Assembly (NCBI GenBank): GCA_030756895.1
Contig: JAVBIX010000052.1
Coordinates: forward strand, 1 to 64,000
DNA: 64,000 nt
Direction: 5' to 3'
DNA from: Synechococcus sp. SP2 MAG
GTDB lineage: Bacteria; Cyanobacteriota; Cyanobacteriia; PCC-6307; Cyanobiaceae
The notes beneath the pieces were generated by a model, which saw only the letters and a program-made list of their open reading frames with translations, was not told the origin of the DNA and did no database searches. Numbering within the stretch: position 1 is the stretch's first letter; each line of letters begins with the position of its first letter. Below are positions 8,222 to 64,000 of this stretch, in pieces. A program made the translations under genes and the position numbers.

Positions 8222-11200
8222 CTAAAACCGGAAGAAAAGCTGTAATTGACTTTGCCAAGTACCTTGCGTATCAACAGAACCTGAAACGCTTAAGTTTTGA
8301 TCTATTTGATAAGTAAGACTTCCCTGAGGAGGAAGATCATTGCGATTGGGTGCAGCCAATACAGATAAATCAAAACGGTCCGCAATATTCACTCCAAAAT
8401 CAGTCACAATTGCCAATTGTGGCGGAACACGACCTGAAACTCGCTCGCCATTATTATCTACTATAGGCGTAACATAAGTGGGATAGAGAGCAAATTGAAG
8501 CCTCTGATTAAAAGCATCGGTGAACGTTCCCAATAATGGTGAGAGCAGAGATTGACCAAGCACCGCGGCTAGAGCCGTACCTGCACCTCCACCAGTGAGT
8601 CCAGCCAACGAGTTACCACCAATCAACCCAAGCAACTGGGGCTGTGGCATAGGAGGAGAGCTACGCAGCTGAATGCTGTCGGCAAGGCGATTAGCTGGAC
8701 CTTCGGCTTGAAGCATCACTTTGACCAAACGCAATTGACCTCCAGCGCCAAGAGTGCCTGTGCCATTCGTATCAAAAATAGTTGTATTCGAGGGGTTACT
8801 CCCAACCCCAAGATTTACACTATCTGAGACCCTAGTCTCCATTGCAATATCTACATAAGGGATCAGGCCCTGCGAAGGAGTGAAGACAGCCACATTCGGA
8901 GCCTTGCGATCCAAATTAAAGGTGCTCGTGAACATCGAAACACGGCCTGTAAGCAACTGCAGAACACCTCTTAGCTCAATATTGGAATCCAGAGGACCAT
9001 TCACTGTGATCAATCCTGCAGTCGTAAAATTTGCTATTGGTTGCACTTGAACCTTTAAGCCAGGACCAAATTGAACTCGAAAGTTGTCAAAACCAACAAA
9101 CGGCAAATTAGGCAGAGATGCCTTCAGTTTCCGACTGGGGTCTTCCTCAACATTGGGGCCGAGTAGAACAAGCGGTTGGTTAAAATCCCAATCCTCTTCA
9201 AGCAGAGCATTGGCTGAAACCAAAGGTCTGGCGACAACCTGATCGTTCTGATATCCACTCTTTCCATCACTCTTTTTTAATCTTGAAAACAGAGATTGTT
9301 CCGGAGTAATTGCCCCATCACTCAACTGAAGATTCCCTTGAAAATTTGGGCTCACAAGTGCTCCATTCACCCGAAGATCAGCCGCGAGCACCACATCAGC
9401 GGTAGGCACCTTGATCCGGGCCTTCTCAACGGTGATGGCTAAGGGAACGTCTTCCGGTCCAGTCTTAAATAATTTCAGAGCGCCACTGGCCTCAATGGTT
9501 CCTGAGCGACCAATTTGACCCTTAAGTTCCTGCACCTCAAGGCGATCGAAATCGAACAAAACGGAACTTTTAACCTTGCTAACAATTTGGTCCCGAACAA
9601 CAAATTCACCATCATTCATCACGATGAATCCATTGGCCTCAGGAGCTAGAAGGCTTCCGCCAATCAACAGCCTGAGATCGGTGTTTCCCTGATTCCAAAC
9701 GACCACGTCTTTCGAGAATCCAGCCAGGAAGTGAAGACCATCACCATGACTTTCAACCCTGACGTCCAAGGGGCGGTCGGGCGTCAGGGGGACCTGCCCA
9801 ATCAACGTGAGCGGCTCATCGGCCCCCTCTGCCCGCAAAGCCAAATCAAGCTGCAAGGTTTCATTAGCAAGCAAAACCTGACCACGATCGAGTTCAATCG
9901 ACTCCTGGCCAACACGTGCCTCCTCCAGCACCAGCTCTGTTGTTAGTAAGGGGCCTCCGTCGCCCAAGCGATAGCTTCCATTAATCCCAAGCGCCCCTTG
10001 CAGCGCTGGAGGCACCGGAGCCACCAGTGCTAACAGACTGAAAGGCAAATGGATCAAAGAAAAATTGCCCTCGCCTGAAGAAAGAGGCCCCTTGACCTCA
10101 GCGATGAACGGTTTCACCTGCAGAGCGATGTCTTCATCTTCTCCATCGATCCAAAGATGACCACGCGCAGTGAGATCAACATCGAGGCTCTTGAGATTGG
10201 GCCCCTGAAGATCAACAACAGCATCGACTTGCCCCCGGAGATCTTCAGGATGAAACGCTTCTTTCTCTCTTCGATAACGACGGGCATCCGCTAATTCCAA
10301 TTGCGATCCTCTAAGTGCCCTCAACTGACCATCCAGCGATCCACCAAAGGTGTTAACAAGCAGCGTGCCCAGGTCTGTGGCATCACCCTGATAAGCAGGA
10401 AGAGATTGGGACAACTGCGGAATGCTGAGAGCACTTGCCGTGAGCCAGCGTGCACTCAGACCACGGGCCTGAATCGTGGCGTTCAGTCCTGCGTTCCGAA
10501 ATCCATCTGCCTCGAACATGATCTGTCCGCTACCGCGAGGTAAGAGTTCGCCGCTGATGTCATACCGATCATTTTTGTACTTGGCAGTCAGCAAAGCTTG
10601 ACGCAACTGAATTCCCAGCAATCCCGGTTGCACGAGCTTCAGATCGGCCGACATGCTCCAAGGCTGCAAGCTCAAATCACCAGACCCACTCAAACGTCCA
10701 TACACCCCTTCCCAACGCTGTTTCGGAGGCAACACCAACTCCAAACCATCCACACTCAGGTTGCTCGCTGTCCAGCGATAAAGGGCAGGACTACCGCTGA
10801 TCTGCAGCTCACCGTTTCTGCGCCGTAAGCGAACGATTTCTGGCAACCAATCTCCCCCAAGTTGGGCATCCAAGGAGCCAGGAATCACAGCTCCAACCGA
10901 TGCCATCTGAAGCTGACCACCTCCACCAGGTTGTCCTTTAAAGCGGCCTTTCCAACGTTCAACAAGGCGGATAGCTCCTGCACGAGGGCTATGGACTTCG
11001 ATCTGAAGATCAGGCTGCAACAACTGAAGAGGACCACGGACCTCCCCATCGACCGCAATCGTGCCGTCCATCTCCGTCCCAAGCAGAGAACCGATCCTGC
11101 TGAGGGGATAGGTCCGTAAGCGCAAATTGGATTGCAACGCGCCAACCTTCAGCCCATCCTTCCCGATTTGAAAGGGCAACACAGCATCTGCATTGAGCTG

Positions 11201-12646
11201 AGGGCTACTGAAGCGATTCAGACTCAACAATCCCTGAACTGAGGACCAATCAGCCTGAAGAGACCAACGTTCAAGCAAAGGATTGCTGTCTTGGTTGAGT
11301 GCCAACTGAAGTCGAGGCGAAAGGCTGGGACCCGACACACTCAACTCTCCATTGAGAGGGGTTTTGGTCCCCAACAGCTCAGGAATCAACGGGAGTCCCT
11401 TCCAGGCTTTCCCGACAAGTTGAAGCTGCTTGGTTTTGATATCCAGCAGCGGATACAAAGCACCCTGAGCCTTGACCGATAAACCTGGAGCCTTCAAAGC
11501 CAATGTTTCGAGCCTGGCTTTCCATGCCTTCGGGCGACGCCCGTCTCCGCGCACCTGCAGATCAATCGCAATGGGTTGATCCAGGACGTTGGTCTCGGGA
11601 AATTGCCATCGCCCTGACAGTTTGAAACGAGGCTGAGACCAATCACCATCAAGGCTCATGGCCAACTGATTGTCCTGATTCAGCTCCTTCAGGGTGGCGC
11701 TTAAATCAAAGTGCTGATTCAGTCGAAATCGACCGCCCAAACTGGCTCTGTAAGGGCCATAACGCCATTGACTGCGAGGAATCGTGAGTTGATCACCATC
11801 ACAGTGGAGACGCAGCTGTCGCGACGCAAGCGCGTGCTGAAGCGGCTTACCGCTGACCTTCAAGCCAACGACGGAAAATCCTCCACCGCAGCTGGTTTGA
11901 CCTCGATTCCATTCGAAACTGAGATCACCACCCAATTGGCCCTTCAGTTGGATGGGCTGGGCCATCGGAAGCAACCCTTGCAATCGGTCCAAGCGAATCC
12001 GCTTCAGACGCGTTGTAAGCAAAAATTCAGGACGATCCCAGTGAGTACGCCCTTTCAACGTCACCGAACCTCGATCAGGGAGTCCGATCTGAAAGGCACC
12101 ATCAGCCCATTTCTCATTGAGACGGAGGCGGGCGGCTCCCGCCAAAGAAAGCTGAAGATCGGCTGGCTCAAACCGAATTTGAGCTGGCTCGGTGAGCCGA
12201 ACTCGAAGGTCGACGCGATGAAGGAAATCACCCTTGGGCGGAGGGCCTGGCACCCAAAACTGCCCCTGTTGATTTCGGCTTAAGTCGACGTTTGCCCCCT
12301 TCAGTCGGGCCACGACCACCAGCCGCAAATGGCGAATACTGGAAAGAGGATCAATCCCCAAGCTGAGTTTCTGCACACGAAGGGTTGAGGCATCCTTCGT
12401 TCCAGGAAGAATCTTGATCGGTCCGATCCCGATTCCATCAAGACCAAGGCCGCGATAAGGGCCGATCTCAATCGGATGCCCCAGTGGGATGGAAAGTTGC
12501 TGTTCAAGGGAGGGACGCAAACCATTGACGGCCCGTGCAATCAATCGGTCAGCAGTCAGCCAAACGGCAGCGGCAGCCACAACTGTGAGGCCAAGTCCAG
12601 AGATCACCACTCGTGGAGCCATCGCGCTTTTGCCTGTGCTCCCCAT
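8222..12646 (-). CDS. TamB/Tic236-type translocation and assembly module protein
   Basis: This very large protein (1474 residues) has a single N-terminal membrane anchor (GLGLTVVAAAAVWL, about residues 18-31). A long beta-rich body follows, with repeated short strands in the AsmA/TamB style. A C-terminal DUF490 (TamB) domain of about 400 residues ends in QLQLFFRF, with the terminal aromatic typical of envelope-spanning proteins. TamB homologues, Tic236 in plastids, bridge inner and outer membranes and help outer-membrane protein assembly or lipid transfer. The stop is three bases before the ROK kinase start, and the gene is divergent from the Ycf51 gene. Confidence 0.9.
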   Translation of the reverse strand: MGSTGKSAMAPRVVISGLGLTVVAAAAVWLTADRLIARAVNGLRPSLEQQLSIPLGHPIEIGPYRGLGLDGIGIGPIKILPGTKDASTLRVQKLSLGIDPLSSIRHLRLVVVARLKGANVDLSRNQQGQFWVPGPPPKGDFLHRVDLRVRLTEPAQIRFEPADLQLSLAGAARLRLNEKWADGAFQIGLPDRGSVTLKGRTHWDRPEFLLTTRLKRIRLDRLQGLLPMAQPIQLKGQLGGDLSFEWNRGQTSCGGGFSVVGLKVSGKPLQHALASRQLRLHCDGDQLTIPRSQWRYGPYRASLGGRFRLNQHFDLSATLKELNQDNQLAMSLDGDWSQPRFKLSGRWQFPETNVLDQPIAIDLQVRGDGRRPKAWKARLETLALKAPGLSVKAQGALYPLLDIKTKQLQLVGKAWKGLPLIPELLGTKTPLNGELSVSGPSLSPRLQLALNQDSNPLLERWSLQADWSSVQGLLSLNRFSSPQLNADAVLPFQIGKDGLKVGALQSNLRLRTYPLSRIGSLLGTEMDGTIAVDGEVRGPLQLLQPDLQIEVHSPRAGAIRLVERWKGRFKGQPGGGGQLQMASVGAVIPGSLDAQLGGDWLPEIVRLRRRNGELQISGSPALYRWTASNLSVDGLELVLPPKQRWEGVYGRLSGSGDLSLQPWSMSADLKLVQPGLLGIQLRQALLTAKYKNDRYDISGELLPRGSGQIMFEADGFRNAGLNATIQARGLSARWLTASALSIPQLSQSLPAYQGDATDLGTLLVNTFGGSLDGQLRALRGSQLELADARRYRREKEAFHPEDLRGQVDAVVDLQGPNLKSLDVDLTARGHLWIDGEDEDIALQVKPFIAEVKGPLSSGEGNFSLIHLPFSLLALVAPVPPALQGALGINGSYRLGDGGPLLTTELVLEEARVGQESIELDRGQVLLANETLQLDLALRAEGADEPLTLIGQVPLTPDRPLDVRVESHGDGLHFLAGFSKDVVVWNQGNTDLRLLIGGSLLAPEANGFIVMNDGEFVVRDQIVSKVKSSVLFDFDRLEVQELKGQIGRSGTIEASGALKLFKTGPEDVPLAITVEKARIKVPTADVVLAADLRVNGALVSPNFQGNLQLSDGAITPEQSLFSRLKKSDGKSGYQNDQVVARPLVSANALLEEDWDFNQPLVLLGPNVEEDPSRKLKASLPNLPFVGFDNFRVQFGPGLKVQVQPIANFTTAGLITVNGPLDSNIELRGVLQLLTGRVSMFTSTFNLDRKAPNVAVFTPSQGLIPYVDIAMETRVSDSVNLGVGSNPSNTTIFDTNGTGTLGAGGQLRLVKVMLQAEGPANRLADSIQLRSSPPMPQPQLLGLIGGNSLAGLTGGGAGTALAAVLGQSLLSPLLGTFTDAFNQRLQFALYPTYVTPIVDNNGERVSGRVPPQLAIVTDFGVNIADRFDLSVLAAPNRNDLPPQGSLTYQIDQNLSVSGSVDTQGTWQSQLQLFFRF

Positions 12647-57722: not shown

Positions 57723-58646
57723 TTAAGAAGAATCCGAAATGTTTGTCAAAGGCTGAGAAGGATCACGACCCTCGATCTCACCCTGAAACACGCGACTGGC
57801 AAAAACATCTTCTGCTTCGATGGTGGTCAGATCATCACGACTAAGAGATTGATCAAGTCGAGAAAATAATCGATTCGCTTGACGGAGTCTCAGACGATCA
57901 AGAGCATTGCGAATGGAACGAGCATTCGCAAAAAATGGCAACTGACATCGCCTCTTGATGTAAAGACTGAAGGCATTTTGAGCCGATTCGCTGAAGTGGT
58001 AATCCTGTTGAGTGAGAAGCAAAAGGGCAATCGCCATTAGCTCATCTTCGCTGTAATCAGGAAAATCGATGTGATGGGCCACTCGCGAGGAAAGACCAGG
58101 ATTGGATTGATAAAAATTAGCCATTCGATCCTTATAGCCAGCGAATATCACCACAAATTCTGATCGCTGATTCTCCATATCTTGCAAAAGTATTTCAATC
58201 GCTTCAGCACCATAGTCTCGTTCATTATCAGACTTATAAAGATAATAGGCTTCGTCAATAAACAGAACACCACCTAGAGAACGCTTGATCATCTCACGAG
58301 TCTTAGGAGCAGTATGCCCAACATATTGGCCAACAAGATCATCACGAGTCACGGTAACAACATGTCCCTTTCGCAAATAGCCAAGCCGATGAAGAATTTG
58401 CGAGATTCGTTTAGCAACAGTGGTCTTGCCCGTCCCTGGTCTGCCAGTAAACGACATATGCAAACCGGGAGCAGTGCTTTGCAAATCCAACTGTTGACGG
58501 GCACGATCTACCAGAAGCAAAGCCGCAATTTCACGAATACGGGTTTTAACTGGCAACAAGCCAATGAGCTCCTGGTCAAGCTGCTCAAGCACCTCCGCAA
58601 CGCCTGAATCGGCATAAGCAGCAGCCAGATCAACAGAAGAGGGCAT
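57723..58646 (-). CDS. cbbX: CbbX-type Rubisco activase (AAA+ ATPase)
   Basis: The 307-residue AAA+ protein matches CbbX, which removes inhibitory sugar phosphates from Rubisco. It has [26 protein letters not shown] before the Walker A motif [14 protein letters not shown], the pore-loop [13 protein letters not shown], the Walker B segment [20 protein letters not shown], and arginine fingers in [21 protein letters not shown]. The ATG at 58646 follows family precedent. It overlaps the end of the acRAF-like gene by 17 bases, so the two form an operon. Confidence 0.88.
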
Positions 58647-58881
58647 CAATCTCTGAAGCGAAGCAACGATCATCATCGCTGAGCTGACTATCATCGTCTT
58701 CAGCTTCTGGGCGAAGAGTGATATTCACATAGGTTCTGCCAAAACTAATGTCAGGAAATCTCTGTTTAGCTTCGCTGAAATCGCCGAGTCGATCAAGAAA
58801 ATCACGCGTGGCACTGTAGCTTTCAAATTCAAATCGGCGCTCAAGGCAAACTGGCCTTTTGCGCTCATGCCATTGGTCCAT
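58630..58881 (-). CDS. acRAF-like Rubisco assembly factor (pterin dehydratase-like)
   Basis: The 83-residue protein begins [22 protein letters not shown] and has [37 protein letters not shown]. This is the pterin-4a-carbinolamine-dehydratase-like fold of acRAF, the alpha-carboxysome Rubisco assembly factor that pairs with cbbX in many cso clusters. The usual dehydratase catalytic histidines are not evident, as expected for acRAF. It is translationally coupled to cbbX. Confidence 0.8.
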
Positions 58882-59273
58882 AAAACGATCCCTTCATCAC
58901 CTACAAACCTAGGAGAGAACGGGCCAACGACCTAAAAATAAATCTTAAAACTGAATCGACACTCATAGGGAGAACCTAAATCAAACAGCTCCGCATAGAG
59001 ACAAACCGGAAAAACAAAACAATGAGAATTAAATAAAGAAAACGAAATGATCAATCAATCCAAGCCCATGAACAGAAGCCAAGAAAAGACAAATACACAG
59101 CGTGACGGTCGTAGCAGGAAAAATCACACCCCACTGCAGAAAAGAAAGCAAAACAGCTCAACAGCTTACGAATACAAAATAGATACACAGCAACGACAAT
59201 TATGATACAGAATATAATTCACAAACAAACAGAATTGAAGTCGTCAAACCGTAAGATTTAAAAAAATTTGGAA
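58882..59273. other. A/T-rich intergenic region with possible small open frame
   Basis: This 392-base stretch between acRAF and the next gene is noticeably A/T-rich. One plus-strand frame (59047-59205) codes for 52 residues of lysine-, glutamine- and asparagine-rich sequence with no ribosome-binding site, so I do not call it a gene. Near its right end, AATTAT and ATAATT form an inverted repeat around 59198-59220 that includes a TATAAT box. This could be the promoter of the downstream gene at 59274. Confidence 0.35.
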
Positions 59274-59564
59274 ATGGAAAACTTAGAAGTATTTCGACAA
59301 GCACTTGAGGATAGTCATAGAAAAAATGATGCAAGCCAAACAATCAATGCGGTAGCCGTCAACCTCATAAGGGCAAAATCAGAGTTAAGCCATGCAACTA
59401 CATCTCTTGCTGAACTTATGGACATAGCAGATGAACAAAACTGTAAGTCATGCCTTGTATTTCTTGCAGAACTAAGAGCAACAGCAATTGCTGCCTACAA
59501 CACAATTAATTCAGCAGAAAAGGAACTGCAAGGTAGAGGCGGCTGTCAAAGCGGTGCAACCTGA
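59274..59564 (+). CDS. Hypothetical protein
   Basis: The 96-residue acidic, all-helical protein (MENLEVFRQALEDSHRKNDAS, then LAELMDIADEQNCKSCLVFLAELRATAIAAYNTI) resembles a small helical adaptor. No family is recognised. A TATAAT-like box lies about 60 bases upstream, in the region before the gene. It is followed 27 bases later by another small gene on the same strand and then by flavodoxin. Confidence 0.55.
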   Translation: MENLEVFRQALEDSHRKNDASQTINAVAVNLIRAKSELSHATTSLAELMDIADEQNCKSCLVFLAELRATAIAAYNTINSAEKELQGRGGCQSGAT

Positions 59565-59591
59565 ACAGAGCCGAGAAAAGGAAGAAAAACC

Positions 59592-59780
59592 ATGAAAGAA
59601 ATGAACATCAGCCTTCTTGAAGCATTCATTGAGACCATTGAGTCAAGCAGGGTCAATAGGGAACGCTGGCTAAAAAAAGTTGGACAGATCGGGCTGGAGC
59701 AAACACTCGGAGAGTACAACAAGTACATACAAATCAACCCAGCAAAAGTATCGAATGATCGAAAACAAAGAAGTCAATGA
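59592..59780 (+). CDS. Hypothetical small protein
   Basis: The 62-residue protein (MKEMNISLLEAFIETIESSRVNRERWLKKVG) is preceded by an AAGGAAG ribosome-binding stretch. The sequence is charged and helical, with no recognised family. Spacing and direction suggest it could share a transcript with the previous gene and flavodoxin. Confidence 0.5.
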   Translation: MKEMNISLLEAFIETIESSRVNRERWLKKVGQIGLEQTLGEYNKYIQINPAKVSNDRKQRSQ

Positions 59781-59875
59781 AACGATCAAATCGTAAGAAT
59801 AAACAGCAATAAATACTCAATTACACAAATCAGGAAGATGGAAGCATTGAAAATAGATTGGTCAACGACAAAGTC

Positions 59876-60385
59876 ATGGCCTACACAATTTTTTTTGCAA
59901 CCTCCACAGGAAAGACTGAAGATGTTGCCGACAAACTCAAAGAGCTATTACCAGGTACAGAATGTAAAGATGTAGACAGCATCGGATCTGCAGCGGAACT
60001 GGCTGAAGCAGAGGCACTCATTTGCTGTGTTCCTACATGGAATACAGGTGCAGACGAAGGTCGTTCTGGGACAGCCTGGGATACTTATGCTGAGGAAATA
60101 CCAAGCATGGATTTCAGCGGAAAATCAGTCGCAATCGTAGGCCTTGGAGATTCATCCTCCTATTCAGATTACTTCTGTGATGCCATGGAAGAGTTATATA
60201 CAGCCTTCCTGCAAGCCGGTGCAAAACTTATCGGAAAAGTAGCCACAGACGGTTATACATTCGAAGAATCAAAAAGTGTGATTGACGGAAAGTTTTGTGG
60301 GTTGGCAATTGATGAAGATAATGAGTCTGACTTAACAGATCAACGTTTAAGCGATTGGGTCAAACAAATAAACTCAGAGGCGTAA
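59876..60385 (+). CDS. isiB: Flavodoxin
   Basis: The 169-residue long-chain flavodoxin has the FMN phosphate loop FATSTGKTEDVADKL and the isoalloxazine-binding VPTWNTGADEGRSGTAWD and GLGDSSSYSDYFCDAM loops. It replaces ferredoxin as PSI electron acceptor under iron limitation. I chose the ATG at 59876; an upstream codon at 59858 is possible. A hairpin terminator follows at 60398-60425. It sits in the A/T-rich part of the window opposite a ferredoxin and a thioredoxin-reductase-like gene. Confidence 0.93.
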   Translation: MAYTIFFATSTGKTEDVADKLKELLPGTECKDVDSIGSAAELAEAEALICCVPTWNTGADEGRSGTAWDTYAEEIPSMDFSGKSVAIVGLGDSSSYSDYFCDAMEELYTAFLQAGAKLIGKVATDGYTFEESKSVIDGKFCGLAIDEDNESDLTDQRLSDWVKQINSEA

Positions 60386-60397
60386 GAGGAAAAACAA

Positions 60398-60425
60398 AAA
60401 AGCGCCCATAATGGGCGCTTTTTAT
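60398..60425. terminator. Hairpin terminator between flavodoxin and thioredoxin-reductase-like genes
   Basis: A stem AAAGCGCCCA/TGGGCGCTTT with a TA loop is flanked by A-rich sequence on the left and a T-run on the right. This gives U-tracts in both directions, so it can end transcription from either the flavodoxin gene (+) or the convergent reductase operon (-). Confidence 0.88.
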
Positions 60426-60428
60426 TTG

Positions 60429-61388
60429 TCATTTATGCACCCAATCAACTCGAAACTCAGTTCTAGAGTTGAGGTATTTGTCAATTGACATTGCAGCGAT
60501 ACAACCATCTGAGCAAGCAACAACAGCCTGCTTGAAAGGGGTATTACGAATGTCACCTATAGCCCAGACTCCCGGAACAGCAGTCATCATATTGTCATCC
60601 ACATCAACTCCACCATCGCCTCGAAGAGGAATAAGTCCATGAAGAAAATCAGTGATCGGGAGCGTACCTGTAGAGTATAAAAAAGCTCCGGTAACATCCA
60701 AAGAGAAAGTTACCTTGTCTTTCGTAGATTGAACCTGTGCAAAATTCAATCCAGCATCAGTTCCATGAATAGACAATAACTTAGTTCGCTCCCATTGCTT
60801 GACATTTGGAAGATCTGTTAGCAACTCAACCCGATTCGTAGATCGGCTTGGTTTTCCACTGGTAACCCAATGAACAGTTTTAGCAAATTTAGCTAGAACA
60901 AGTGCTTCATCAACAGCTTCTTGATTTGAGCCATAAACCAAGACATCCTCATTACGATAAAAAGCGGCATCACAGGTCGCACAGTAACTAACACCACGAC
61001 CTAAAAATTCTTTCTCCCCAGGAAGAGTTGATGTCCTACCCATCGCACCAGTCGCTAAAACTATTGTACGAGAACGAAAGACACCTTCCGGCGTATAAAC
61101 AAGTTTATACTCTCCAGATAAATCTAAACTAAAAACCTGAGCTCGCATATAGTTTGTTCCATAGGAAATGGCTTGGTCTCGCATCATATCAAGCAGCTCA
61201 GATCCAGAGATCTCATTAGAGACACCGGGATAATTAGCAATTTTATGAGTAATGGCCAAAGCCCCTACAGATTTATTTTTATCTAAAATATAGGTCTTCA
61301 ATGATGACCTAGAAGTGTAAAGAGCACAAGAGCAACCAGCAGGACCACCCCCTATGATCAGCACATCGGTATCAATATAATCTGTCAT
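60429..61388 (-). CDS. Thioredoxin-reductase-like flavoprotein with altered NADPH site
   Basis: The 319-residue protein has the FAD motif DVLIIGGGPAGCSCALYTSRSS, a redox CATC pair (SYCATCDAAFY), and a C-terminal GVWAIGDIRNTPFKQAVVACSDGC. The usual NADPH-binding GGGxSA and HRRxxxR motifs are replaced by VYGSNQEAVDEAL and SGKPSRSTNRVE, so NADPH may not be the donor. Ferredoxin or flavodoxin-linked thioredoxin reductases without NADPH binding are known, and both carriers are encoded next to it. Its start overlaps the hydrolase stop (ATGA). Confidence 0.85.
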   Translation of the reverse strand: MTDYIDTDVLIIGGGPAGCSCALYTSRSSLKTYILDKNKSVGALAITHKIANYPGVSNEISGSELLDMMRDQAISYGTNYMRAQVFSLDLSGEYKLVYTPEGVFRSRTIVLATGAMGRTSTLPGEKEFLGRGVSYCATCDAAFYRNEDVLVYGSNQEAVDEALVLAKFAKTVHWVTSGKPSRSTNRVELLTDLPNVKQWERTKLLSIHGTDAGLNFAQVQSTKDKVTFSLDVTGAFLYSTGTLPITDFLHGLIPLRGDGGVDVDDNMMTAVPGVWAIGDIRNTPFKQAVVACSDGCIAAMSIDKYLNSRTEFRVDWVHK

Positions 61389-62146
61389 AATGAAATCCTT
61401 CTCGAGAGCGAAGAATGGAATTGATCAGGAAAAGTAGATGAGAATGAATTTGGAATCATCTCGAGAAAAGAATTTATCAAGGTTCCATAGAGCTTGGCCT
61501 GAGAGAAATGAGAAAAATGATAGCCTCCAGGTAAAGAATAGAACCGATCACCGTTCTTTAAATGAGGCTTCCAACGCAGGGCAGAATTTTGATCTACTAC
61601 AAAATCATCAGAGCCATTAATGACCGACATTGGAATGTCAATCGAAGAAAGGTTAGGAAGAAGCGAATGAGAAGCAATTGAACCAGGTATAAAATCGTTA
61701 TCAAGACATTTTTCAAAGAAACCAGAAAGAGATAAATTGGTTTGATTGATTTTTTTATCAAAGAGAAGTGGCACAATATGAGACAAGATAGAAGATCTTG
61801 AGCAGGGTAATTTTCTTCTCATTTCCAAATAATGACTCGACCATTGATTCGTAGAAATTGGGTCAACAGAAATCAAAGTAAGTGATCCAAATAACGTAGG
61901 AAATTGACGCGCAAACAACGAAGCGACAGTGCCACTAAGACCATGTGCGACAACATGAGGTGGTGAATCTAATTGACCGACTGTTTCTCTGAGAAAATCA
62001 AAAATCGTTGATAAGGAGCAGATCTCATCAAGATCATGCTGAAAAGACCAACGGCGTACATGTCTTGACTGACTTAAAATGCAAGCAAGCTTCTTACTAA
62101 AGCAAAAAACAGAAGGCTGCAAATCAATCCAAAAAATTGATGACAT
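61385..62146 (-). CDS. Alpha/beta hydrolase
   Basis: The 253-residue protein has a nucleophile elbow AHGLSGTVASLF near residue 92, and an acid and histidine (NGSDDFVVD, GGYHFSHFSQ) towards the C-terminus. No signal peptide is evident. The protein is serine/isoleucine rich, matching the local A/T bias. It is translationally coupled with the downstream reductase gene. The substrate is unknown. Confidence 0.75.
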   Translation of the reverse strand: MSSIFWIDLQPSVFCFSKKLACILSQSRHVRRWSFQHDLDEICSLSTIFDFLRETVGQLDSPPHVVAHGLSGTVASLFARQFPTLFGSLTLISVDPISTNQWSSHYLEMRRKLPCSRSSILSHIVPLLFDKKINQTNLSLSGFFEKCLDNDFIPGSIASHSLLPNLSSIDIPMSVINGSDDFVVDQNSALRWKPHLKNGDRFYSLPGGYHFSHFSQAKLYGTLINSFLEMIPNSFSSTFPDQFHSSLSRRISL

Positions 62147-62217
62147 GCTGAAATAATGCTTTTACAATATTGCCGCATTAGCTGCCGCCTCAAGAACGAA
62201 GAGGCACAGCATTAAGA

Positions 62218-62436
62218 TCAATATGTTACAAATGAGCCGGACGGATGATCACCACTCATCCCGGGAATAACCTGAATAATTCCTTGCTGAATCTTTAATT
62301 CTAAAGCAGAGATTAATCGACGTTCAGCACTATCAGCAGTACTCTTCAAGAAAGAAAGCGCATTTAATGCCGAGAGGGGGATAGCCATAGATGTAACGGC
62401 TTCTAAATAAATAGCAACAATAGATGAGATTTTCAT
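62218..62436 (-). CDS. Hypothetical protein in ferredoxin-reductase operon
   Basis: The 72-residue protein starts MKISSIVAIYLEAVTSMAIPL and then has LNALSFLKSTADSAERRLISALELKIQQGIIQVIPGMSG. The helical N-terminal part is hydrophobic. No family is recognised. The ATG at 62436 is the likely start; there is no strong ribosome-binding site. It lies between ferredoxin and the alpha/beta hydrolase on the same strand and is probably co-transcribed with them. Confidence 0.5.
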   Translation of the reverse strand: MKISSIVAIYLEAVTSMAIPLSALNALSFLKSTADSAERRLISALELKIQQGIIQVIPGMSGDHPSGSFVTY

Positions 62437-62518
62437 GAAATAGAGCTGGCAGGGGGAGAGGTAATTAGCCACCAATAAAATAGTGAGTCAATTAGCGAAA
62501 GATCGTCCAAATAAGGGA

Positions 62519-62815
62519 TCACCAAAGCTCCTCTTCACAATCGGTCTTGACGATCAGATTGGAGGTGGCATATGCTACGCATAAAAGTGCATATTTATCT
62601 TTTATTTGTTCCTCATCAAGAAAACTTTGATCACTCTGATCTAATGTTCCTTGAATCAGCCGGCCTACACATGAACTACATGCGCCAGCACGACATGAGT
62701 ACGACATATCAATACCCGCTTGCTCTGCAGCATCCAGAATATACTCATCATCAGGACATTGAAATGACACCTCTCCTTGAGGAGTCATTAGCTGAACATT
62801 AAAAAATGTCATCAC
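62519..62815 (-). CDS. Plant-type 2Fe-2S ferredoxin
   Basis: The 98-residue protein has the four cluster ligands Cys41, Cys46, Cys49 and Cys79 ([14 protein letters not shown], then [10 protein letters not shown]). These mark a soluble photosynthetic-type ferredoxin that carries electrons from PSI. It is first in a reverse-strand run towards the reductase gene, and differs from the usual petF by its acidic end (KTDCEEELW). Its proximity to flavodoxin suggests a paralogue used under particular conditions. Confidence 0.93.
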
Positions 62816-63051
62816 AAGAATAGTCCAGTGATTATTTTATTGCATTAGTCAATCAATTCGTAACATCGATTTACCCATAACGTATCATATGGCACTTTTA
62901 GCTCAACAATAGTAACAATCAGGCCAACAATTGGATGTATACAACCTCCTAAAGATGCGCCCAAAGCGATTAATCTGATAGGGCAAAAAAGATCATCCTC
63001 CCAATCGGTATTGGATAGAATTGATAGTATTTAAGGGTGAAATAAATCACC

Positions 63052-63267
63052 ATGAAAGAAGAAAGATTCTCTCGGTTTCTCGGTTCAGCGAATGGATGGA
63101 GATCCAAGCGTCTAAGACTTGCAATTGCCTTAAGAAAGCAAGGATGGTCATATAAGCAAATAGGAGATCACCTAAGTACGACCCCACGATCGATAGGAAG
63201 GGATATCAAATGCTTTGTCATTAAATCAAAAGAGAAACTGGCCCTCCAAATCCAAGCCACGTCGTAG
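63052..63267 (+). CDS. Small helix-turn-helix-like protein
   Basis: The 71-residue basic protein (MKEERFSRFLGSANGWRSKRL) contains a probable helix-turn-helix, LRKQGWSYKQIGDHLSTTPRSIGRDIKCF, like the C-terminal part of sigma factor region 4 or a transposase-like HTH. An AAGGGTG ribosome-binding stretch precedes it. It is divergent from ferredoxin and may regulate the neighbouring redox genes, which is speculation. No family is recognised. Confidence 0.6.
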   Translation: MKEERFSRFLGSANGWRSKRLRLAIALRKQGWSYKQIGDHLSTTPRSIGRDIKCFVIKSKEKLALQIQATS

Positions 63268-63357
63268 CATCAAAGAAACCCTAAAACAGACGATTGAAAA
63301 GCCATGCTCAATAAATAAGAAGCAATAGCCTCATATTGGCTCACAAAAAACAGCTAT

Positions 63358-63531
63358 TTATCCATCAGAGACGGAATCAGATAATTTTTTTTGGACTTTT
63401 TTATTTATATCAGAATAAAGCTTGCTCAAGCTAATATGATCCTCTGATGTTGTGCGATTGATCCAATCTTCAAGAATCTGAGCAGACTCATCACATCTGG
63501 CCACGAATGCAGCGTCATCATGTTTTTTCAT
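63358..63531 (-). CDS. Hypothetical 57-residue protein
   Basis: A short reverse-strand frame encodes MKKHDDAAFVARCDESAQIL and on to DWINRTTSEDHISLSKLYSDI. It is charged and helical, with a composition unlike random A/T-rich DNA. The ATG at 63531 is followed by a lysine-rich start; a stop lies seven codons upstream in frame. No ribosome-binding site stands out and no family is recognised. Confidence 0.45.
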   Translation of the reverse strand: MKKHDDAAFVARCDESAQILEDWINRTTSEDHISLSKLYSDINKKVQKKLSDSVSDG

Positions 63532-63707
63532 TAAAAGGAAATCAGCTACTTAGCAATTATCAGTTGATTAAAGATCAACATAGACGCGAATGCTTCGCAT
63601 TTGCTGCATCTTTTGATACAAAGAATGCAAAGAAATATGAGGCTTGCAAACGAGTCCCCCCTGCTTCAAAATATTTAAACCAGTCTTTTTTCTTGGAATA
63701 GTATTGA

Positions 63708-63965
63708 TCAAAGAAGAGCTCCTCGCTGGCATCCCATCAACCTCTCAGACCATGATTCGGCATAAGCATGATTGGCTTGTTGCTGATCAGCATCTTGCGT
63801 ATCCAGAGGATGGGGCATTGTGCCTGAGATTGCACCATTCGTGACACAAAACATCGATTTTTGAAAACTGATGCAGATCTGCACATGGACATCACGCATT
63901 CCCCTGCCATGCGACAAGTACCAATCACTGAGCTCCTTTGGAAGATTTCGGTACATATCTTGCAT
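63708..63965 (-). CDS. Hypothetical protein near window edge
   Basis: The 85-residue frame contains MYRNLPKELSDWYLSHGRGMRD and then a mixed alpha/beta-like stretch ending GTMPHPLDTQDADQQQANHAYAESW. The composition looks protein-like, but the start is uncertain: ATGs occur at 63956, 63965 and 63995. No family is recognised. The 176 bases to its left hold a plus-strand frame too weak to call. Confidence 0.4.
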   Translation of the reverse strand: MQDMYRNLPKELSDWYLSHGRGMRDVHVQICISFQKSMFCVTNGAISGTMPHPLDTQDADQQQANHAYAESWSERLMGCQRGALL

Positions 63966-64000
63966 GCACAAACTCGGAGGAATACCCGCTCCCATACTGG

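Follow-up and report, generated by a model that had tools for sequence, protein, structure and literature searches.

A gene in the middle of an apparently iron-related locus raises two questions: which donor reduces a thioredoxin reductase in which the NADPH-binding motifs have been lost, and why is such an enzyme kept in a genome that encodes both subunits of FTR? The window, that is, the whole stretch of 64,000 nucleotides that was analyzed, contains this gene at 60429-61388 on the minus strand, and its product is an intact TrxB-like flavoprotein with the FAD motif GGGPAG and a match to Pfam PF07992. The host is a marine cyanobacterium whose genome (2.22 Mb, 99.77% complete) encodes this one FFTR and one NTRC-like protein, which is 29% identical and carries a C-terminal CGPC stretch. 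The nearest named FFTR loci are those of Synechococcus sp. AG-679-C18 (91%) and AG-686-F08 (90%). The sites that define the enzyme are as follows.

60972..60983, minus strand: CATC redox disulfide, residues 136-139 (from the sequence and alignment).
60909..60944, minus strand: residues 149-160, VLVYGSNQEAVD in place of the NADPH motif GxGxxA (opposite GGGDSA of 2a87 in the alignment).
60828..60875, minus strand: residues 172-187, VHWVTSGKPSRSTNRV in place of the HRRxxxR stretch (from the alignment).
60441..60443, minus strand: W316 in DWVHK, the C-terminal Trp that corresponds to W315 of Gloeobacter (from the alignment).

The sequence-only reading had described intact FAD and CATC sites together with the absence of GGGxSA and HRRxxxR, and both observations were borne out: YGSNQEA and WVTSGKP stand at positions where the NADPH-type enzyme 2a87 has GGGDSA and HRRDEFR, respectively. 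GGGDSA is also present in the NTRC-like protein of the host. An alignment of 52 rows was prepared from 41 FFTRs of the host's family (29 from cassettes, the window included, and 12 stand-alone), two from further cyanobacteria (L006 and L007), six from other phyla, 5j60, 2a87, and the NTRC-like protein. In all 41 family FFTRs, both NADPH motifs are absent while the FAD motif and SYCATCD are kept, and because this pattern is shared by all of these rows, the motif loss is not a sequencing error or decay. The best PDB matches were 5j60 and 6xtf (E 4e-127, residues 4-318, 426.9 bits to 5j60), the Gloeobacter violaceus enzyme, whose structure has been determined both by itself and in complex with its electron donor, and the next best was an NADPH-type TrxB (E 5e-53). 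The thioredoxin-binding motifs, written as GR/KG and FF (PMC9025218), appear in the window FFTR as GRG and, at the FF position, as AF, likewise AF in 5j60. W315 of the Gloeobacter enzyme stacks on FAD (PMC12796991), and W316 is present in the DWVHK tail of the window FFTR, where the AlphaFold model has a pLDDT below 50. In a tree from which the NTRC-like row was left out, all 29 cassette FFTRs formed one clade (100/100) beside other cyanobacterial FFTRs, and the window FFTR fell with the characterized Gloeobacter FFTR. Judged from its sequence, the window ORF is a cyanobacterial FFTR; the PDB match, motifs, C-terminal Trp, and tree agree with the NADPH-independent, ferredoxin-type class proposed earlier, and by homology the enzyme would depend on ferredoxin.

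The FFTR gene lies in a cassette with the following features.

58992..63705, edges approximate, no strand: whole cassette, missing at the same site in the sister genomes G022 and G177.
59268..59564, plus strand: small ORF with a CxxC motif, in the window's own clade.
59592..59780, plus strand: small ORF upstream of the flavodoxin gene; related small ORFs stand at the same place in other cassettes.
59876..60385, plus strand (start at 59858 according to the ORF caller): long-chain flavodoxin of the IsiB/FldA type, convergent with FFTR.
60397..60423, no strand: two-sided hairpin resembling an intrinsic terminator, in the gap between flavodoxin and FFTR.
60429..61388, minus strand: FFTR (ferredoxin flavin-thioredoxin reductase, formerly DTR), 319 aa (assigned by PDB match, motifs, tree, and model).
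61385..62146, minus strand: alpha/beta hydrolase, overlapping the FFTR gene by 4 bp.
62218..62475, minus strand: small ORF, with family members in 23 of 29 cassette regions.
62519..62815, minus strand: plant-type [2Fe-2S] ferredoxin.
63052..63267, plus strand: small HTH_23-like protein, divergent from ferredoxin.

The hairpin comprises 12 pairs and has T-rich tails on both strands. As had been noted from the letters, flavodoxin is the convergent neighbor of FFTR and ferredoxin lies upstream on the same strand. Two ORFs stand between ferredoxin and FFTR, namely the hydrolase and the small ORF at 62218-62475, for which relatives suggest an internal start and a length of 72 aa; from strand and spacing, it is plausible that ferredoxin and FFTR share an operon. 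The host genome has five other ferredoxin-type matches, none more than 60% identical to the one in the cassette. The presumed triad of the hydrolase, Ser71/Asp181/His210, is invariant in 34/34 aligned relatives, and no PDB sequence relative was found for this protein at E 0.01. Its Cys43 is also invariant in 34/34 aligned relatives. The linked hydrolase could be the IsiC protein of isi operons and may correspond to isiC of the isiAB operon; it could also be a redox target. The HTH_23-like protein, a candidate regulator, scored 22.1 bits, below the Pfam cut-off of 24.6, and a relative in L081 scored 26.3 bits. ORF clustering revealed no antenna gene in the window's own cassette. Fur boxes of the E. 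coli type were not enriched in the 220 bp ahead of six cassette genes: the best match was within 0.15 matches of that in shuffled sequences for five genes and was 11.6 versus 11.1 for the hydrolase gene. A 19-mer of the E. coli type served as the query.

To see how far this arrangement extends, the same 300 family genomes, all at least 85% complete, were searched for FFTR (called by matches under 1e-80), FTR beta (PF02943), and window-type flavodoxin; absence in this survey means that a gene was not found by that search. FFTR was present in 153/300 genomes, 29 with the cassette and 124 with a stand-alone gene, so that the earlier description of a type known from only a few bacteria does not hold; the enzyme is common in picocyanobacteria. 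Flavodoxin of the window type (72-100% identity) was found in 29 genomes, further flavodoxins reaching at most 67%, and in 29/29 it is convergent with an adjoining FFTR, with 43-108 bp separating the matched stretches. Within the genus of the window, both genes occur in the same 13 of 25 genomes and neither occurs in the other 12. The 29 cassette regions consist of the window and L058-L085, two of which (L068 and L076) are short. The hydrolase is present in 28 of these regions, the small ORF family of 62218-62475 in 23, the HTH protein family in 20 (by ORF clustering), ferredoxin in 16, and an IsiA/Pcb-type antenna gene in nine (by clustering). Scans of three of these nine put 3/3 above the cut-off of TIGR03041, which was taken to cover IsiA and Pcb alike. 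A 484-aa protein of L084 that clustered with the antennas proved to be PsbC (910.7 bits) and was not counted. Around several cassettes of genus g5, scanned representatives of the neighbors were an iron-uptake porin, a Crp-type regulator, a ferritin, an Fe2+ dioxygenase, and a solute-binding protein that looks iron-related. Several cassette genomes carry a second, divergent flavodoxin elsewhere (L098-L102 and L104-L106; row L103, one residue long, was dropped), and these eight rows form one clade on the cassette-flavodoxin side of the tree.

Similar neighborhoods occur at some loci beyond the family. A survey of the class found FFTR in 75/388 genomes, 24 of them outside the family, and at these 24 loci an antenna gene was nearby in seven, the hydrolase in six, flavodoxin in four, and ferredoxin in two. 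One antenna protein from each of the seven loci was scanned, and 7/7 were above the TIGR03041 cut-off. On one strand, L224 has flavodoxin-hydrolase-FFTR, and L216 and L226 have antenna-flavodoxin-ORF-antenna-ferredoxin-FFTR, with one extra antenna-like gene in L226; the antenna-like protein at L216:4422-5498 was under the cut-off. None of flavodoxin, ferredoxin, antenna, or hydrolase was seen in the stretch covered at 16/24 of these loci; several stretches end at contig ends. The linked cases are spread over two families and four genera and so do not count as independent trials.

Which of the linked proteins feeds the enzyme? In Gloeobacter FFTR, potentials of -448 mV for FAD, -424 mV for Fdx1, and -320 mV for NADPH have been reported (PMC12796991). 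The FAD of this enzyme is beyond easy reach of NADPH and near Fdx1. Flavodoxin hydroquinone has a similarly low potential, and flavodoxin could therefore serve as a donor. We lean, if only slightly, toward flavodoxin as the native donor of FFTR and toward the cassette as an iron-free link between photosystem I and thioredoxin in cyanobacteria that hold FTR. Flavodoxin is the most constant neighbor of FFTR (29/29), whereas ferredoxin occurs in only 16/29 regions, which argues against the possible but less favored explanation that FFTR is fed by ferredoxin only and that flavodoxin is its neighbor through a shared iron-stress regulon, not as a donor; that explanation draws on the use of ferredoxin in published FFTR work (PMC12796991), the ferredoxin gene within the same gene run in the window, and the lack of flavodoxin linkage at the 12 stand-alone FFTR loci examined. 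Flavodoxin has also been cited as a donor to plant-type FTR and other enzymes, weaker than ferredoxin (PMC5322553), so that FFTR is not the sole conceivable route for its electrons.

NADPH itself is a very improbable donor. An NADPH-type thioredoxin reductase with a drifted but still working site would account for the shared overall fold and for the match to the TrxB equivalog TIGR01292, although the latter (281.8 bits) is below the cut-off of 343.45; both motifs are gone in the 41 family FFTR rows, however, the C-terminal Trp is present, and the tree that was to place the enzyme relative to complete-site NADPH TrxB puts 2a87 far outside the FFTRs and groups the window protein with the characterized one. 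NADPH TrxB/NTR was thus rejected on sequence and tree. Structure prediction had been suggested in the sequence-only reading. Foldseek with the AlphaFold model (pLDDT 87.6, tail unsure) ranked 5j60 and 6xtf first by E-value, yet with a TM of 0.58 and an rmsd of about 15 A, and many NADPH-type TrxB structures overlaid the model better, with a TM of about 0.85. The poor overlay on 5j60/6xtf probably reflects a different domain rotation in the model, and the model therefore adds little beyond the fold. Least probable of all is a DDOR-type diflavin disulfide oxidoreductase working in the opposite direction, which likewise lacks the NADPH motif (PMC9025218) but whose solved chains match far more weakly (5n0j, E 1.7e-18; 5jri, E 7e-16; versus 4e-127 for 5j60) and in which the GRG thioredoxin-binding motif of the window FFTR is reported missing (PMC9025218); it was rejected on sequence and tree.

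Returning to FFTR and the neighboring flavodoxin, we asked how the two genes are gained and lost. A quick marker tree of the window protein at 8222-12646 was built for 51 genomes, with some long branches flagged, and the FFTR state needs 14 changes on this tree. FFTR differs within 13 independent pairs on supported branches, and flavodoxin agrees in 13/13 (sign p 0.00024). Because one deletion can remove adjacent genes, this co-loss marks a unit and not by itself a working pair; as the two genes are convergent, they have no common promoter. In the FFTR-less sisters G022 and G177, and likewise in G130, G156, and G100, CbbX-PCD is directly followed by ChpX, an empty site. Alignment to the sisters stops near 58991 and picks up again near 63668-63706, giving an insert of about 4.7 kb, and since FFTR-less sister genomes have the empty site, the cassette behaves as a unit. 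The site lies in a carbon-concentrating region, between CbbX/pterin-4a-carbinolamine dehydratase-like genes (57723-58881) and a gene run at 63708-63998 that we take to be ChpX-NDH. In G100, G206, G211, G216, and G221, the cassette stands beside a SulP-type transporter gene instead. These SulP genes belong to the same cluster as those near stand-alone FFTRs, where a gene of this cluster and an SbtA-type gene are nearby in 10/12 loci examined.

Comparisons with phages, viral contigs, and plasmids gave no support for an origin of the cassette from a phage or plasmid. Phage DNA in 66 records has 60-80% identity to the query, and the 20 phage matches listed cover 3-5% of it, at ferredoxin genes. 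No FFTR turned up when viral contigs were scanned for close relatives. The best plasmid match was a cyanobacterial FFTR of Stanieria (58%), which lacks a flavodoxin within 9 kb. This locus (L189) is on Stanieria cyanosphaera plasmid pSTA7437.01, typed as conjugative, and has psbA, dps, and universal stress protein genes near FFTR.

The distribution of FTR separates the two kinds of FFTR genomes. FTR beta was found in 26/29 cassette genomes versus 0/124 genomes with stand-alone FFTR. FTR beta only was found in 138/300 genomes, and neither enzyme in nine, eight of which have a completeness figure, at most 94%. In three cassette genomes, G206 and G216 of the window's genus and G016, the search found neither FTR subunit, a possible case of natural replacement of FTR in marine Synechococcus. 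The cited parts of a survey of 95 FFTR genomes state that all studied Synechococcus contain FTR, to which G206 and G216 would be exceptions, and that both enzymes occur in Synechococcus such as KORDI-100 or CC9902 (PMC9025218). These parts note the coexistence in some Synechococcus and give no reason for it, and the word "flavodoxin" occurs in them 0 times (PMC9025218).

Taking these results together, we consider it probable that this FFTR belongs to an iron-stress cassette and gives photosystem I an iron-sparing path to thioredoxin, one that takes electrons from both ferredoxin and flavodoxin and backs up FTR. Reduced ferredoxin or flavodoxin hydroquinone would pass electrons to FAD one at a time, FAD would reduce the CATC disulfide, and the resulting dithiol would reduce thioredoxin. 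The cassette, gained and lost as a unit, comprises flavodoxin, FFTR, the alpha/beta hydrolase, the small ORF, often a special ferredoxin, and sometimes an IsiA/Pcb-type antenna, and its route would act when iron is short, backing up or, in a few genomes, replacing the [4Fe-4S] enzyme FTR. The position of the enzyme beside iron-stress genes suggests that light-driven redox control continues through it when iron runs short. The cassette thus offers a testable reason for the coexistence of FTR and FFTR, with FFTR as an iron-sparing arm that is passed on together with a flavodoxin of its own. If flavodoxin is the native donor, the cassette would be an iron-stress bypass for the light control of carbon metabolism, with parallels in other families. 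In low-iron oceans, CO2 fixation could then stay under light control without relying on an iron-sulfur reductase, and the linked ferredoxin would join FFTR and flavodoxin in one iron-stress marker set for marine picocyanobacteria.

FFTR as an enzyme type is known: the Gloeobacter enzyme has been characterized, and the type has been reported from Prochlorococcus and from some Synechococcus. Its tie to iron-stress genes, however, is hardly explored. A 2021 Plant Physiology paper on cyanobacterial FFTR reportedly proposes, in its abstract, a low-iron adaptation in Prochlorococcus. Among the papers listed in our search of openly licensed literature, none was seen to join FFTR as such with isiB or isiA. 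Gloeobacter violaceus FFTR (5J60, 6XTF) resembles the window enzyme in its sequence (about 60% identity), missing NADPH motifs, CATC, and C-terminal DW tail. Unlike it, the window FFTR is in an iron-stress cassette with flavodoxin, in a genome with both FTR subunits, and Gloeobacter has been reported to be without FTR (PMC9025218). Stand-alone picocyanobacterial FFTRs belong to this family too (59-63% identity among the listed rows) and come from genomes of mostly 1.4-2 Mb, presumably Prochlorococcus; unlike the cassette, the 12 loci examined gave no match to flavodoxin or the hydrolase, and FTR beta was not found in 124/124 genomes. DDOR is also TrxB-like and without the NADPH motif but matches far more weakly, and its thioredoxin-binding motifs are reported missing (PMC9025218).

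Closer parallels come from iron-stress systems. A cluster of flavodoxin and thioredoxin reductase, Syn-eCAG_011, was enriched in low-iron Synechococcus of Tara Oceans (PMC10119275). Compared by gene names in the text, it is probably the same gene pair as flavodoxin and FFTR; the cited passage does not specify the reductase as an NADPH-independent FFTR and leaves hydrolase, ferredoxin, and antenna unnamed (PMC10119275). In Southern Ocean Synechococcus, transcripts of trxB, isiB, pcbA, and ferredoxin rise with an iron chelator, the ferredoxin rise being called paradoxical (PMC9723758). The proposed role of the cassette would explain this rise of a "thioredoxin reductase" together with ferredoxin under iron limitation, though this trxB may be a different TrxB-like gene, for instance NTRC. 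The trxB of Synechococcus PCC 7002, tied to peroxiredoxin and PerR, belongs to a different setting (PMC4628125). Four marine Synechococcus have isiA, isiB, and a specific ferredoxin (PMC2441476), and the isiAB iron-stress operon includes isiC and isiD in some strains (PMC8635728). The cassette resembles the classical isiAB operon in its isiB-type flavodoxin (29/29) and in the antenna gene of 9/29 regions; unlike isiAB, it contains FFTR, which the flavodoxin faces convergently in Synechococcus.
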